A stretch of 64,000 nucleotides of DNA from Pyrenophora tritici-repentis. Its lineage: Eukaryota; Ascomycota; Dothideomycetes; Pleosporales; Pleosporaceae. Positions within the stretch are counted from its first letter, which is position 1. The number at the start of each line of letters is the position of its first letter. Under the pieces are notes generated by a model that ran no database searches, was not told where the DNA came from, and was given only the letters and a program-made list of their open reading frames with translations. Below, in pieces: positions 4,899 to 59,367 of the stretch. The stretch covers positions 1,922,001 to 1,986,000 of the forward strand of contig NC_089398.1 of assembly GCF_003171515.1 (NCBI RefSeq), in the 5' to 3' direction. A program made the position numbers and the translations under genes.

Positions 4899-7061
4899 CT
4901 AATAATCATAACTCTCGTTGCCAAACCCCTCATCCTCATCCTCCATGTAATTCCCTTCCAAATCCTCTTCTTCCTCAACCTCCTCCTCCTCAACCTCTTC
5001 CTGTTCTTCTTCATATTCACCCTCGGCATCCTCCTCGCCACCAACCTGCTGCTGTGCAGCACCAGCGGGAGAACCCGACGCAGCCGACGGACTCGCAGCA
5101 GTCGTACCACCGGGAAAAAGCTGCTTCAACTTGTCATAATTGATATGATTGCTAAACCCCTTGGCGCGCTTCTTCAACATCTTATGCGCCGCCTCTGCCG
5201 CACTAGCCGCCGGCTGACCGCCCAGCACGCTCCCATCACCCATCTGATGATGTTTGCGTTTCTGCTTTGGTTTCTTGGGTTTATCCTCTGCGGCTTCGAG
5301 TTCAGCTTTGAGTATCTTCTCCTGCTGGGTACGGAGCCATTCCTCGTTTTCCGTGATCCAGATGGCTTCTTTGCGGCGGACTTCGTCGGGGGAGAGGATG
5401 CAAGAGGCGACGTCCGGGTCTGATTCGAATTCTTCTTCGCCGATTTCTGGGTCGAGGTTTATCGCGGGGGCGCCGGCAGCATCGCGCGTGTCTGTTGCGG
5501 CGCGCGCCATTTCTGCCGCGGTCCAGCCGGAGCGGCGGAGGAGGTCGTGGTTTTCGTTTGTGGCAATTTCTTTGAAGATGGCTTCCCAGTCTCGGATTGT
5601 GCTTGTGACTTCTTGTTCGAGATCTTGCTCGATTTCTAGGTCTTCAGGCGGGATGACGATTGGGGTGCGCATTTTGGGGCGGCGGCCGCGCTTCTTGGGC
5701 ATGACAAAGTCTAGGTCGGTGGCTTCACCAGCTTCAACTTCTTCGAGTGCGCTGGCGACGGATTCAATGACCGTTTCGTTGTTACCATCAAAGGCCTCTA
5801 GTTCTGAAGCTATGCCGTTTTCTTGTGTGGCAGCAGGAGTAGGTTGTTGGCCTGAGACTTCTTGAGACGAACCGTCATTCGACTTGCGCCTCTTGCTCGT
5901 CCTTGTAGGGGAAGTACCAGTGGCAGCTTCGGCACCGCCGTTGTCAGACACGTTTTCGCCATCAGCTTCGGCATTACCGCCTTCCTCTTGTCTCCTCTTC
6001 CTCTTCTCAACTCGTTCTTCTCTCTCTGCGCGTCTCCAGATAGCGGGTGGCTGGGCCTTGACCTTCAGTCGCGGTCCAAACTCACGAAACTGCTTCACGG
6101 TCAAAGCAGCGCTTTGTGTCCTCTTGTACTCGTACAGACGGGAGGTGATTGTGGAGTCTGCGACTTTGACAACGTAGACGACTTCTCGGATAGTTCGGCG
6201 GAAGTTGTTCATGCGAGCGGCTATGATGATGCAAGCACCACACAGTCCAGCAGGTTGGCGACCTTGTACCATCCAATCTCTGTTCATGCGCTTCAACACC
6301 TTGCAGGCATCATCGGCAACCCTGTGGGAGTCGTCTCCAAACTCGAGTTTTCGACAGTACTTCAACATCAGCGGTTCGATTTCCTGGACGGCCTTGTTGC
6401 CAATAAGTTGTGCCGGATCCTTCTCTTTCATCGTCTTCAAGAAGGACTTGTACGTATCTCCCAAAACCCAAACATTGGTCTGGATCTTCTCGGCCAAGTC
6501 GATGAGCATGAGCGTATTCTCTGGTTGCCTCCGGGCTGCCATGTAGATGGATATAGCAGCGACATTCCTCATCCTACGTCCCTGAACGAAGTTGAAGTTC
6601 ATGGAAAGCTTATACCAGCTAACGGCCTGCTCTATCACTGCTTCGCGCTGGTTGAGAGAAGCACCAAGAGCCTCGATGGCGTTCTTGCCGTTCAGAGCCG
6701 CCTGCTCCCTGCTCCCCATGCCACCTAGACCCCTCATGGTTCCACCCATGGAGTTTGCGTGGCGTTGATCCTGATGGATGGTGCCACCCTGGACTGTAGC
6801 CGCTCCGTTAGAACCCTCAGCAAAGGTAACCTCGGAGACGATGTCGACGTTCTCATGAACAGCACCACAAGTGTAGCATAATATCGTGTTTTCACTGGTG
6901 TCTATAATCGGGTTTTCGCAGCAGTTGTATGTCCGTTTAACCTGTTTCACCGGAGGAGGTGGAGGCAACGCCCGTCGCTTGTGCTTGTAATTGTACTTAT
7001 CGCGATCATTTATCGACATAAGGCGCCCCCTCGGCGGCCGGGCAACCTGTGACGTAGACAT
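4899..7061 (-). CDS. BRF1: transcription factor IIIB subunit BRF1
   Basis: A single exon of 720 residues. BRF1 joins TBP and BDP1 in TFIIIB and recruits RNA polymerase III to tRNA and 5S genes. In order: a basic N-terminus, a zinc ribbon ending in CYTCG, the conserved linker EVTFAEGSNGAATVQGG, two TFIIB-type cyclin repeats (about residues 130-330), an AIWRRAERE segment, a long low-complexity acidic/basic linker, and the BRF1 homology block SPDEVRRKEAIWITENEEWL that contacts TBP. The tail is strongly acidic and ends GNESYDY. The start at 7061 (MSTSQVARP) is preferred because the open frame upstream of it has no conserved content. The first zinc knuckle is odd: the expected first Cys is Thr (KRTYNCCEN). 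Confidence 0.95.
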   Translation of the reverse strand: MSTSQVARPPRGRLMSINDRDKYNYKHKRRALPPPPPVKQVKRTYNCCENPIIDTSENTILCYTCGAVHENVDIVSEVTFAEGSNGAATVQGGTIHQDQRHANSMGGTMRGLGGMGSREQAALNGKNAIEALGASLNQREAVIEQAVSWYKLSMNFNFVQGRRMRNVAAISIYMAARRQPENTLMLIDLAEKIQTNVWVLGDTYKSFLKTMKEKDPAQLIGNKAVQEIEPLMLKYCRKLEFGDDSHRVADDACKVLKRMNRDWMVQGRQPAGLCGACIIIAARMNNFRRTIREVVYVVKVADSTITSRLYEYKRTQSAALTVKQFREFGPRLKVKAQPPAIWRRAEREERVEKRKRRQEEGGNAEADGENVSDNGGAEAATGTSPTRTSKRRKSNDGSSQEVSGQQPTPAATQENGIASELEAFDGNNETVIESVASALEEVEAGEATDLDFVMPKKRGRRPKMRTPIVIPPEDLEIEQDLEQEVTSTIRDWEAIFKEIATNENHDLLRRSGWTAAEMARAATDTRDAAGAPAINLDPEIGEEEFESDPDVASCILSPDEVRRKEAIWITENEEWLRTQQEKILKAELEAAEDKPKKPKQKRKHHQMGDGSVLGGQPAASAAEAAHKMLKKRAKGFSNHINYDKLKQLFPGGTTAASPSAASGSPAGAAQQQVGGEEDAEGEYEEEQEEVEEEEVEEEEDLEGNYMEDEDEGFGNESYDY

Positions 7062-8279
7062 GGTAGGTGTACTGGAATTTGCAGTGTTGCGAAGAAGTGT
7101 TGTGTTGAGTAAGTCAAGTCCAAGCAAGTCGAGAAATAATTGAGGGACAGTCAAGAGGCGCGAATAAGACGCGGTACCGCGGGAGGGGTCGACCGGGGCG
7201 GAGTGGGCTGCGCTTGCCTGTTTAGGTACCGAGCTCTGCACCTCGAGCTGCGAACATCCACACAAGCCGGCGATGGCGTGTATGTATTTTGGTAGTGCTT
7301 TGGCAGGCTCTGAACATGTCTATAGCCTATCAGAAGAAATGAGGGCAAAAGTCCTATCTTCCATCTAACTGCCAAATACACAGCTCAGCGGCCCCCAAAT
7401 CTAGTGGAACAGTGGTTCAAGTTGTCCAATCCAACTTCTACATCTCACTGATGAACAAACCGAACCGTCATACTGAGTATAGTCATAAGTAATCTGTAAT
7501 ACTGAGTATAGTCATAAGTAATCTGTAATACTGAGTATAGTCATAAGTAATCTGTAATACTGAGTATAGTCATAAGTAATCTGTAAACCTGTTCTCCATG
7601 CCGTCATGCAGCAGGCATCTCGATCCCGCGGTGCGCGGATGAACTGAGTCGCAACGCCGAGTTTCCAACAGGGAAAAAGACGACCTTCACCAAGCACAAA
7701 CGAGTGTGTCCACTCATCCCACCCCAATCAAACCTGTACAACCACATGAAAAAACACGCCTGACAGCAGACACCACACGCTCCCTTGACACGCGGTACCT
7801 GCATCAAATCTCCCCAAGCGCAAACTACGCTTGTGTGCCCTTCACAGCCAGGCCTCGAGATGCAGGTGATGGCACCCGCACGTCTGATTGGCCAGCAACG
7901 GCCCATCCGAACAGGCCGAACTAAGCCATACAGCAAAAAAGCCGGGACGGGGTCGTCCGCAAAGAGGTCCCTGGCTTCCCAGCCTCCTTGGTAAGAGCGA
8001 GCTTGCGTAGGTGGTGGTGTGTGTGTACCCAGCTACCGCTACGTATTTCTTCCAGGACCCCCCCCTCGTCGTCCCGTGTTCTCTTGCTTGCTTTGCTTGT
8101 CCCCGCTCGCTCTCTCTCTCTCGCGCTTCCCACCTTACCTTACCAACCTGCCTCGAAGCGCAAACACTAGCTCATCTTTTCCCTCCCGACTTTGCGAAAC
8201 TTAGTTTACAACTACTACTACTATCTGTACCAAACTTTTCGCGGCGTGTAGCTTTTTTTTACGTCACAAACGAATCATC
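7062..8279. promoter_or_regulatory. divergent intergenic region between BRF1 and the acidic-protein gene
   Basis: About 1.2 kb separate the two divergent start codons, so it should carry both promoters. It contains a four-copy minisatellite (separate entry) and, near the downstream gene, a C/T-rich stretch around 8040-8130 with CTCTCT runs typical of fungal core promoters. No coding region was seen. Confidence 0.45.
7471..7586. repeat. minisatellite, four perfect 29-bp copies
   Basis: Four head-to-tail identical 29-bp units occupy 7471-7499, 7500-7528, 7529-7557 and 7558-7586. Each begins TACTGAGTATAGTC and ends AATCTGTAA. No difference between copies was found on direct reading. The array sits in the divergent promoter region upstream of BRF1. 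Confidence 0.97.
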
Positions 8280-30025: not shown

Positions 30026-31131
30026 ACAAAATCCATGTATATTTTGAGATAGAACGTCATTCTTGCATGTCCCTTCCAAGGCCGAAGCGAGCGAGCGAGC
30101 AGGCCTGCTGCCCTTTTTCCAAGCGTGGTGTTTTTCATCAATATCATTTTTTTTTTCACAGGCATGGGTACATAGAAACCTGTTTGGTGTTTATGGCGCT
30201 TTTTTTCTTTTCTTTACCGACTCACGAGTCTCTTCTCCATTGTCATCCACGCATGTCTAGCATATACCTGTTTCCTTTTTCTTCTCTTTTTAGTCATCGT
30301 CATCATATTACATACGCTATGAATAGCCGGCCGGTCAGCCACCCACCCCATTTTCTTTGTAACGGGCGAGGAGGATGGTGGGGGTGTAGGAATTTCGAGC
30401 CTGCCTGCCTGCCTTTTGTTGAGGCCTATGTTGGTTGGCGCATATCGCCACGGGCAAGCAATGAAAGTAGACATAACAACTTAGTCTTCTTCTTTAGAAC
30501 TAGAAGAAGTTGAGGAATGTATAAATGTATAAATTATGGATCGTCTTGTTTGTGTTTGTTGAGTGTGTGTGAATGAACTCATTTCGCAGACGGGAACTTT
30601 GCGTTTTCTGCAAAGTTTGTATAGGGATTAGTAGATATACACGAGTACTTCACACATATTATGGAGTGCTCTCTTTCATTCTCTATCTAACCTAAAATCC
30701 GGAAGCTATCAATAACAGCAATCACTGGCACATATATGTAAACCAATCGTAATTTCCAGTAGCGCAACTCTTCAACTGCGTGGTTTTGTCGGCGCAATGG
30801 CCTGAAAATAGAACACCAATAATGTAGCTCCACAGAAAAACCCAAACTGAGAAGAAAGAAAGCCCCTTCGAAGCGGCACACGAAGCGAACTGAACCAACC
30901 CGTATTTGAACCTAGCGCTGCAATCTCTGGTCCTGGTATGTCGATACCGCCGGTATCGCAGTTCAGTGTATGTAGTGTAGGTATAGTGGGGTAGTTTTGA
31001 AAAAAATTCCCCTCTCCCAGCAATACCCACCCCACCACGCCGGGCACAGAACCATCCATTTCCAAGCTCGCTCAACAGCTTTTGCACCCGCGTATAATTA
31101 TTAACTAATTTGTCTTTTTTACATCAACAAC
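30026..31131. other. 3' flank of the membrane-protein gene and 5' flank of the tRNA gene
   Basis: About 1.1 kb without a supported gene. T-rich sequence to about 30660 suits a long 3' UTR. A TATA-like ATAATTATTAA at 31094-31104 lies roughly 30-40 nt before the tRNA 5' end, where upstream TATA elements assist Pol III in some fungi. Confidence 0.4.
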
Positions 31132-31146
31132 GACAAGTTGGCCGAG

Positions 31147-31197
31147 GTAAGCATTAGCCGCCTTCCCAGCTTCAACATCAGTTCTAACAAATAATAG
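31147..31197 (+). other. 51-nt GT-AG intron-like insertion in the tRNA D-loop
   Basis: Begins GTAAGC, contains TTCTAACA with a branch-like CTAAC at 31184-31188, and ends AATAATAG. Length and signals match the spliceosomal introns of neighbouring protein genes (45-60 nt, CTAAC 8-15 nt before AG). It splits the Pol III A box: TGGCCGAG lies before it and TGG after it. Seen directly: the boundaries and the restored tRNA. Inferred: that the spliceosome removes it. Confidence 0.8.
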
Positions 31198-31219
31198 TGG
31201 TTATGGCGTGTGACTCAAG

Positions 31220-31250
31220 CGCAAGCTTATCGGGTTCTTCCCGACGCATT
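31220..31250 (+). other. canonical tRNA intron after position 37
   Basis: A 31-nt insertion one nucleotide 3' of the anticodon, the standard place for eukaryotic tRNA introns. It can fold into two small hairpins: AAGC (31217-31220) with GCTT (31225-31228) across a GCAA loop, and CGGG with CCCG (31231-31243). The exact borders follow from pairing of the anticodon stem and could shift by a base or two. Confidence 0.75.
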
Positions 31251-31300
31251 CTCATGGGCGTAGCCCGCGGGGGGTTCGAATCCCCCACTTGTCAATATTC

Positions 31301-31307
31301 TTTTTTT
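31301..31307 (+). terminator. Pol III oligo-T terminator of the tRNA-Leu gene
   Basis: Seven consecutive T residues starting seven nucleotides after the tRNA 3' end, as expected for RNA polymerase III termination. Confidence 0.85.
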
Positions 31308-57713: not shown

Positions 57714-59367
57714 TCACCAAGCATCCGAAAAATACCGCTTCGACCTCGTCCTCCCAGCATCAATCTTGGAATCCTGCGGCAGCGGCGTAATATGATGAAC
57801 AACATGCGGCCGATAAACCGCATCAACAGGCGGCATCCAGTCATCGAGACCAAGCGGGAAATACTCGTACAGTAAATCTGCGCTTTCATCCGGACTATTG
57901 ACCACGCCGATGGAGAAGGAAGGTGGCCGTACTGGCGTTGCGCGTTTTCTGTGCTGCTCGTTGGGAGAAGGTGCTTTGGGTGGTTCGTCGTCTGTGAGGG
58001 AGAGGGAGACGGGCGCTATTGACGCGCGCTTGGGGAGGACACCCCTAGGGACTTCGGGTGTTGACTGCGCGTACGGTGTGGCGTGGTGCATTTGAGACGA
58101 AGGCGGGTCTGCGGGTATGGCAGTCATGGCGCCGGCGGGAACTTTCCAGGCAAAGTCAGGTGATGGTGGAATATCGGTTGCGCTAAAGTCAAAGGGCATC
58201 TGCAACAAATCCGCCGGTTTCGAGGGCGGTGCGGGCTGGGCTTGCGTCTGCTTGGGTGTGTTTTGGTTCGTGTCACCCGTTGGCGTTCGACTAGATTGCT
58301 GTGGTGTGTGCACCTTTCGTGCTGCTGTTCCTCCGCTAATCGGCATGTCCTTGCGCGCCTGGAAATTGCGCGGACTTCTGCCGCGCACAATGATAGCGCC
58401 GGATTGGATCTCGCATATGGGTACTTTGACGCCGCTAGCTAGTGTTGCTACCACTTTTAGTCGTACCACAAAGTGCTGTTGCAGTTCTTTCCGCCGTCCG
58501 TTGTTGGCAGTTGCTATTCGGAACTGTAGTCGCTTCCAGCTGATGGGAAAGCTGACGTATTCTGAATCCATGTCTTGGCCTGCTGAGAGATCGAGTGGGT
58601 ACGTCGGGGGTTCCTTTTCCGTCTTGTCTTCTACAGGCGCAGTGCTGGTGGCGGGTGTTTTCCAGGGGACTGATATTATCTTGACCGGGTTGCCTTCAAG
58701 CGACTCGGTTGCAGATATGGTGAGTTCCTGGCCCAAGATTGGTATTTGGTCTCCCTGTTCGGTCATGAGAAACTGCAAGTTCCTAGGGAGAGTGATGGTG
58801 CCGGTGATTTGGAAGAGGTTGCGCCTGTAGCAAGTCAACTCGGATGGCGCCTGGACGTCTGCTGCAGTGGCCCAAGGCGACTCAGCCAGGAAGAACATGC
58901 CATGAAGCTGGGCGGACATGGAGATGGAGACTCGTTGCATGGTGTATGTGAGGATGGTGTAGGGCATGACGGGGAGAGAGAAGCTGAGGAGCTTGTTATT
59001 GCTCTCGATGCTGGGGCTCTCTGGCACGCCATTGGGCTCGTGTGGGTGAATGGACTGCTCGTAGCCGCTCTGGACGTCTGAGAAGGGGTCCTCGTAGGCA
59101 CTGGGATAGCGCTTGAGTTGTGGTGGTAGTTGCTGGAGGTGGTATGTGGAATAGGCATCCTCGCTTCTGGGGGCATCTTCAGCAACGGCGGCAGGTATCG
59201 CTTCTGGGGACTTACCCGATAAACGTCTCGGCATCAAACGTCGAACGCTGGTCATACTGGTCCATAGGCACCATGGGCATGGCGATTTGCTGGTCAGGCC
59301 CAGTAACCGTCTGCAGAGGTAGTGGCATTGGCATGTACGACATGGTGCTGGTGTCAAAGTGCTCCAT
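57714..59367 (-). CDS. ron1: NDT80/PhoG-type transcription factor (RON1/NdtA/FSD-1 group)
   Basis: Two exons, 59367..59216 and 59166..57714, give 534 residues. The N-terminus is Met/Gln/Pro-rich (MEHFDTSTMSYMPMPLPLQT). The NDT80 DNA-binding domain spans roughly 100-330, with LTCYRRNLFQITGTITLP, GQELTISATESLEGNPVKIISVPWKTP, YVSFPISWKRLQFRIATANNGRRKELQQHFVVRL and IVRGRSPRNFQARKDMP. The C-terminal 200 residues are Pro/Ser-rich and likely disordered, ending in a basic patch. Ndt80-type factors bind MSE-like sites; RON1 of Trichoderma reesei activates a GlcNAc gene cluster, and this gene sits inside an equivalent cluster. FSD-1/NdtA/XprG relatives act in sexual development and protease control, so the exact orthologue needs a tree. 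The 49-nt intron joins TFIG-SEDAY in phase. Confidence 0.9.

Follow-up and report, generated by a model that had tools for sequence, protein, structure and literature searches.

How can a tRNA gene that is split within its D arm by what looks like an mRNA intron still give rise to a tRNA, and is it alone in its genome? This question is raised by a tRNA-Leu(CAA) gene (31132-31294) in a 64,000-nucleotide stretch of Pyrenophora tritici-repentis DNA. That stretch (C9:1922001-1986000) is called the window here, and window positions are given without a contig name. The genome of 40,899,269 bases in 41 contigs was surveyed for comparison.

Structure of the tRNA-Leu(CAA) Gene

The gene lies on the plus strand. 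Exon 1 (31132-31146) provides the 5' strand of the acceptor stem and positions 8-15, which hold the first part of the A box. It is followed, between positions 15 and 16, by an insert of 51 nt (31147-31197) that starts with GTAAGC, ends with ATAG, and has a CTAAC branch-site motif (31184-31188) 9 nt before its 3' end. By the grammar that it shares with other inserts of the genome, it is an intron of spliceosomal type. Its border can slide left by 1-2 bases with the product unchanged, and the GT-AG placement is one of three equivalents. Exon 2 (31198-31219) provides the remaining D arm, the 5' strand of the anticodon stem, the anticodon CAA (31216-31218), and G37. The next segment (31220-31250) is a 31-nt anticodon-loop intron whose border slides by 1 nt (ARAGORN i(39,31), insert removed); it is short and located at 37/38, as are canonical tRNA-endonuclease introns. 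The D-arm insert, at 15/16, lies outside that canonical location. Exon 3 (31251-31294) completes the gene with the 3' strand of the anticodon stem, a long variable arm, the T arm, the 3' strand of the acceptor stem, and the discriminator A. Direct reading places the B box GGTTCGAATCC at 31273-31283, a T7 run that is a Pol III terminator at 31301-31307, and a TATA-like element (TATAAT) upstream at 31093-31098. An initiator-like CATCAA (31122-31127) also precedes the gene, and by motif count it is present before many tRNA genes of this genome.

The original prediction, made from the sequence, described a 51-nt insertion at 31147-31197 with GTAAGC, CTAAC 9 nt from the end, and a terminal TAG, and it listed the acceptor stem, T arm, discriminator A, long variable arm, and T7 run as intact; the sequence agrees on every point. 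It also stated that taking out the insert restores the D arm and A box and that an ordinary anticodon-loop intron is present at 31220-31250. Run on the insert-free sequence, ARAGORN calls tRNA-Leu(caa) and places an intron of 31 nt in it, and cloverleaf, B box, and terminator are then all intact. The raw 64-kb window gave no tRNA match with ARAGORN when introns were disallowed and none with Rfam at the gathering score. At the unmodified locus, ARAGORN reported nothing with introns up to 60 nt and misread the gene as Glu(ctc) with an 85-nt intron when up to 200 nt were allowed. A group I or group II self-splicing intron was rejected because its core needs hundreds of nucleotides and the insert has 51, and the window is without an Rfam match at the gathering score. 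The single minimum-energy fold of this one precursor sequence has no clear cloverleaf or bulge-helix-bulge.

Two protein genes of the window were also recorded. The gene for BRF1, a TFIIIB subunit and Pol III factor, lies on the minus strand (4899-7265) at a distance of some 24 kb from the tRNA gene, which is probably a coincidence. An NDT80-family protein (57714-59357, minus strand) is 97% identical to a Pyrenophora teres cluster along 89% of its length. The relatives named next are other Pleosporales, and by this one protein the genome is Pyrenophora-like.

Survey of tRNA Genes in the Genome

Nuclear tRNA genes were collected with B box plus T run patterns, an Rfam tRNA search, and the reading of short stretches, and loci were chosen by eye. 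The patterns matched 90, 48, and 25 places, and those resembling tRNA 3' ends by eye were taken on. The count of 77 genes is a lower bound; an insert outside the anticodon loop is present in 19 of them and absent from 58, so about one-quarter are interrupted. The uninterrupted set includes L141, with an ambiguous anticodon, and L095, which was recognized by eye and not by ARAGORN. Most genes came from patterns that demand a T run, and terminator presence is therefore biased. No gene was counted for Phe, Trp, His, Leu (AAG or TAG), Arg (ACG or TCG), Ile(TAT), Pro(TGG), Ala(TGC), or Thr(CGT). These isoacceptors are presumably to be expected in this genome, and the survey is thus incomplete. A query made of tRNA sequences and the U6 core matched a single Val(AAC) gene and otherwise nothing but U6-like places.

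The 19 interrupted genes represent 14 isoacceptors. Besides the Leu(CAA) gene of the window (31132-31294), they are Ala(AGC) (L087, L088), Tyr(GTA) (L089, L108, L118), Ser(AGA) (L101, L113), Ser(GCT) (L161), Glu(TTC) (L097), Glu(CTC) (L143), Gln(CTG) (L099), Pro(CGG) (L114), Arg(CCG) (L122), Leu(TAA) (L137), Lys(CTT) (L139), Asp(GTC) (L146), and Ala(CGC) (L156, L157). When ARAGORN was run on these genes with introns up to 60 nt, it found nothing in 13 of the 19, a wrong tRNA in five (L089, L108, L118, L114, L146), and in L143 the correct tRNA with its 5' end misplaced. Genes of this kind may therefore be overlooked in related genomes. Patterns for the interrupted Tyr or Leu genes had no match in viral and prokaryote genome contigs.

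Several groups of loci were left out of the count. One (L072, L073, L080-L083, L085, L086) belongs to a tRNA-Arg-like repeat. The Rfam tRNA search found 19 places at 46.1 bits, for example L072, L073, and L080, that have its 84-nt tRNA-Arg-like head in common, and L072 and L073, the two copies compared, share sequence beyond the 3' end of the head. It is a putative tRNA-derived, SINE-like repeat. Other excluded loci are non-tRNA, repeat, or ambiguous (L077-L079, L090, L093, L098, L100, L102, L103, and likewise L112, L126, L142, L144, L145, L153, L155), and L158 is a repeat of part of L140. Also left out were L033-L061, L064, and three loci with tRNA-like ends, L116/L160, L123/L159, and L154. 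A further repeat with a B-box-like motif, GTTCGATTCCCAACACTGACTATC, occurs at 17 B-box-pattern places (for example C10:2357600 and C10:2363100). On C4 (746192, 751692) and C10 (2352100, 2357600, 2363100), copies related to it are spaced by exactly 5,500 bases, an arrangement like that of the two ends of an LTR element. Contig G000:C41 carries mitochondrial-type tRNA genes, and five pairs of Rfam matches on it have equal scores and opposite orientation, which is a large inverted repeat or an assembly duplication.

Splicing Signals of the Inserts

With borders placed by eye, guided by the tRNA fold and, where it left a choice, by the GT-AG rule, the 19 inserts are 51-63 nt long (mean 55.5). Every one starts with GTNNG(T/C), namely GTACGT in six, GTAAGT in five, GTAAGC in three, GTGAGT and GTATGT in two each, and GTTCGT in one. 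CTAAC or CTAAT stands 9-12 nt before the end in 19/19, and the 3' ends are TAG (9), CAG (9), and AAG (1). Dinucleotide shuffles of the inserts that kept the first and last base meet all three signals in 14 of 38,000 cases. After insert removal, ARAGORN reads a tRNA from all 19 genes, and its anticodon equals the by-eye reading in 18; the exception is L099, called Lys(ctt) by ARAGORN and Gln(CTG) by eye. In hand numbering, the inserts occupy some ten sites (about 8/9, 10/11, 11/12, 13/14, 15/16, 20/20a, 20/21, 30/31, 52/53, and 53/54), which fall in the D arm, the anticodon stem, and the T arm, and nine of the genes have their A box split by the insert. An anticodon-loop intron is also present in 14 of the interrupted genes by ARAGORN, and by eye in a 15th (L137).

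The original prediction held that the Leu(CAA) insert resembles the mRNA introns of this genome in length and signals. In the protein-coding frames of the window, eight frame-breaking joins across segments of the same grammar have 95 or more open codons to either side. Eleven permutations of the CTAA motif gave 0-3 such joins each, and at a threshold of 60 codons the counts were eight and 0-4, respectively, which upholds the likeness. The eight segments, which are candidate introns by this frame test, measure 46-58 nt. Bare matches to the grammar occur at 20 loci of the window, including the tRNA insert, and shuffled sequence has 12.8 on average and 21 at most. This is a modest excess, so it is the frame test that carries the mRNA-intron enrichment. 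Ab initio prediction of mRNA introns proved too noisy and gave way to this grammar test.

Two arrangements are recorded separately. Ser(GCT) L161 and Ser(AGA) L101 (G000:C1:8051440-8051800, minus strand) lie about 15 nt apart with no T run between them, and each has a GT-AG insert; they likely give a dicistronic precursor that contains two introns of spliceosomal type and a single anticodon-loop intron. The loci L116/L160 (C5:1260150-1260530), L154 (C3:2073165-2073415), and L123/L159 (C9:1195080-1195400) have long inserts outside the GT-AG grammar. Their acceptor stem and T arm match by eye, and no GT-AG removal yields a tRNA from L160, L154, or L159 despite the tRNA-like ends. They are possibly missing isoacceptors such as His, or relics.

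Proposed Removal of the Inserts

Very probably, these inserts are U2-type spliceosomal introns in working nuclear Pol III tRNA genes, of which there would be at least 19. We infer removal by the spliceosome, the order of steps, the function, and the polymerase from signals and position. The whole interrupted unit would be transcribed by Pol III; because the A box is split in nine genes, selection of the start would probably rely on TATA and CATCAA upstream and on the B box, which is intact. The nuclear spliceosome would then recognize GTNNGY, CTAAY, and AG, and the 51-63 nt would leave as a lariat. Once the intron of the D arm, T arm, or anticodon stem is gone, the tRNA could fold, and the tRNA endonuclease would cut out the ordinary anticodon-loop intron where there is one. 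Since 14 of the 19 genes also have an anticodon-loop intron, most precursors would need both splicing systems. A single Pol III transcript that passes through two splicing systems, as had been proposed for the Leu(CAA) gene, is the best-supported reading, and it gains strength because it would extend to at least 19 genes.

Canonical nuclear tRNA introns, which are removed by an endonuclease and a ligase, also interrupt tRNA genes, and they co-occur with the inserts in these 14 genes. They differ in that they lie at 37/38 and are recognized through structure, whereas the present inserts are spread from 8/9 to 53/54 and are marked by signals for splice sites and a branch site. We know of no GT..CTAAC..AG grammar in the tRNA introns of red algae and archaea. 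The original prediction mentioned D-loop introns in algae and archaea, and such introns are indeed described (PMC3978253; PMC4033280); the non-canonical introns of red algae and archaea likewise interrupt the D loop, the T loop, or the anticodon stem (PMC3978253). These enzymatically removed introns are the precedent for the idea that the tRNA endonuclease takes out the inserts here too and that their GT-AG likeness is coincidental. We consider this highly unlikely. The endonuclease acts there at bulge-helix-bulge-type motifs, unlike the signals found here, and such introns are described as recognized by RNA structure and not by GT-AG signals (PMC13149111), while a spliceosomal grammar is common to 19/19 inserts. 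The yeast enzyme is described as cutting strictly at 37/38 (PMC4033280), which makes it an unlikely remover of these inserts.

Transcription of the Interrupted Genes

Spliceosomal removal by way of the Pol III transcript has to be weighed against interrupted tRNA genes that sit within longer Pol II RNAs and are spliced there as usual. Pol II transcripts are the usual substrate of the spliceosome, and the A box is split in nearly half of the genes (9/19). Upstream TATA boxes are described as important for tRNA genes in some fungi (PMC3978253). In this genome, TATA at -65 to -15 was counted before 14 of the 19 interrupted genes and before 38 of 57 uninterrupted ones, and CATCRA within 35 nt upstream precedes 9 of 19 and 32 of 57, respectively; some stretches in these counts held less than 70 nt of upstream sequence. 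The elements are thus about equally frequent before both classes, and the gene of the window retains its B box, T7 terminator, and upstream TATA and CATCAA. The suggestion that the Leu(CAA) copy may be read by Pol II finds no support in these counts or in the T-run terminators, which are present in a search biased to T runs. U6 of Schizosaccharomyces pombe, moreover, is described as a short Pol III RNA that likewise has an mRNA-type intron and can be spliced (PMC10484740). For these reasons we regard Pol II transcription of the interrupted genes as very improbable.

The U6 RNA of S. pombe belongs to another RNA class, and here tRNAs are concerned, in at least 19 genes and at about ten sites. 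U6 is uninterrupted in the P. tritici-repentis genome. Its gene (L147, C2:1204080-1204760) has a B-box-like GTTCGAATC about 50 bp past the T run, an arrangement reminiscent of budding yeast U6 with its downstream B box. A second U6 copy in the L147 region is 5'-truncated and on the opposite strand.

Paralogs and Empty Sites

Comparison of interrupted genes with their relatives provides the counterpart to the insert grammar. Exact empty sites, with 0 mismatches over 24 nt of joined flanks, were found for five of the 19 genes. They are in L075 for L101 and L113, in L070 and L071 for L161, in four genes for L139, and in two genes for L099. L143 and the uninterrupted L106 differ by 1 mismatch over 24 nt, in the 5' flank. 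Inexact empty sites in other isodecoders have 3 mismatches for Ala(AGC), 2 for Pro(AGG), 4 for Ser(TGA), 7 for Asp, and 9 for Glu(TTC), and Leu(CAA) compared with Leu(CAG) has 6.

Spliced tRNAs are 100% identical among the three Tyr copies, the two Ser(AGA) copies, and the two Ala(AGC) copies, and their GT-AG introns are 56-72% alike. The Ala(CGC) pair is 93% alike after removal of the GT-AG insert, anticodon introns included. Across the Tyr, Ser(AGA), Ala(AGC), and Ala(CGC) paralog pairs, the GT-AG introns are 53-72% alike and the 50-nt 5' flanks 40-64%. Shuffling the introns of one pair 200 times gave a mean identity of 51% and a maximum of 59%. Some intron pairs from unrelated tRNAs likewise reach 72%, so identity alone does not show that paralogous introns descend from a single intron. 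Common descent of the introns within a tRNA family would rest on shared position more than on identity, and the identical exons of paralogs could in part be due to gene conversion.

Introner-like elements are described as a source of new spliceosomal introns in Dothideomycetes (PMC4457414). Introner copies resemble each other, whereas the tRNA introns here are at most 72% alike, against the shuffled mean of 51% and maximum of 59%. Near-identical copies were not found in a comparison of the 19 tRNA introns alone, and a 163-nt DNA query with the Leu(CAA) gene matched only itself in the genome.

Apparent Dependence on Interrupted Genes

An uninterrupted tRNA-Leu(CAA) gene elsewhere had been named as a sign that the copy in the window is dead, and none was found by three genome searches with matches judged by eye. 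The pattern TCAARN{30,60}GGTTCGANTCC matched five places, among which the gene of the window is the sole tRNA-Leu. A second Leu pattern matched 62 places, none tRNA-Leu-like by eye from the matched strings, and the spliced-exon query had the window locus as its sole Leu(CAA) match. That query missed three uninterrupted Asp(GTC) genes, so isodecoders elsewhere could be missed too. These three genes, of another isodecoder, rule out reliance on the interrupted gene for Asp(GTC). A D-arm pattern with 336 matches, compared with 331 for the reversed control, was uninformative and was set aside; one exact Leu(CAG) was among the matches listed.

L141 (C10:3382370-3382600, minus strand) has a pyrimidine-rich insert of 44-46 nt and a short variable arm, and its anticodon is TCA or CAA by ARAGORN settings, which give SeC(tca) or Leu(caa). 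Since it is without a long variable arm, it was not counted as Leu.

For tyrosine, all three Tyr(GTA) copies found are interrupted, and a Tyr-directed pattern matched 14 places, the three known genes and 11 that are not Tyr-like by eye from the matched strings. The single genes found for Leu(CAA), Leu(TAA), Pro(CGG), and Arg(CCG) are all interrupted, as are both Ala(CGC) genes, which come from the general survey with no dedicated search. In the survey and these searches, therefore, no uninterrupted gene was found for six isoacceptors, Tyr(GTA), Leu(CAA), Leu(TAA), Ala(CGC), Pro(CGG), and Arg(CCG). Leu(TAA) is the other UUR-leucine tRNA, and tyrosine codons and the leucine codons UUA and UUG thus appear to depend on interrupted genes.

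That the interrupted genes are dead copies with intron-like insertions, with uninterrupted genes supplying the cell, would suit the uninterrupted paralogs of Ser(AGA), Ser(GCT), Lys(CTT), Gln(CTG), and Glu(CTC) and the uninterrupted genes for Asp (another isodecoder), Glu(TTC), and Ala(AGC), but it is the most improbable of the explanations, since the six isoacceptors without an uninterrupted copy found include the sole Tyr isoacceptor and both UUR-Leu, and since dead copies would be expected to decay in exons and signals, whereas spliced sequences are identical in three groups and the diverged introns have kept their signals.

Working genes with spliceosomal introns would have a further consequence. 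It is likely that all tyrosine and UUR-leucine tRNA in this fungus comes from Pol III genes with spliceosomal introns and is processed by two unrelated splicing systems, that cytosolic translation would thus be spliceosome-dependent, and that introns have been gained or lost at many tRNA sites, some of them inside the A box.

Significance

Spliceosomal introns are described in the 18S rRNA genes of ascomycetes (PMC11889510). They are likewise spliceosomal introns in a structural, non-mRNA RNA and occur in the same subphylum. They differ from the present introns in that they interrupt Pol I transcripts and not tRNA, and their precursor would involve no second splicing system. The word tRNA is absent from the main text of PMC4457414 and PMC9860276, and no earlier description of spliceosomal introns in tRNA genes was found in the open-access literature, preprints and subscription papers aside. 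The view that a GT-AG intron in a fungal tRNA gene is undescribed stands within that same literature.

Should removal of the introns follow their signals, the spliceosome would count among the tRNA-processing machinery of this fungus, spliceosomal introns could occur in Pol III transcripts in large numbers, and the supply of tRNA would be linked to splicing. With these genes it could be tested how the spliceosome works when a Pol II tail is missing, in which order two splicing systems act on a shared precursor, and how a Pol III gene functions when its A box is split. Filled and empty sites stand side by side in several tRNA families, so that the gain of spliceosomal introns may be tested as well.
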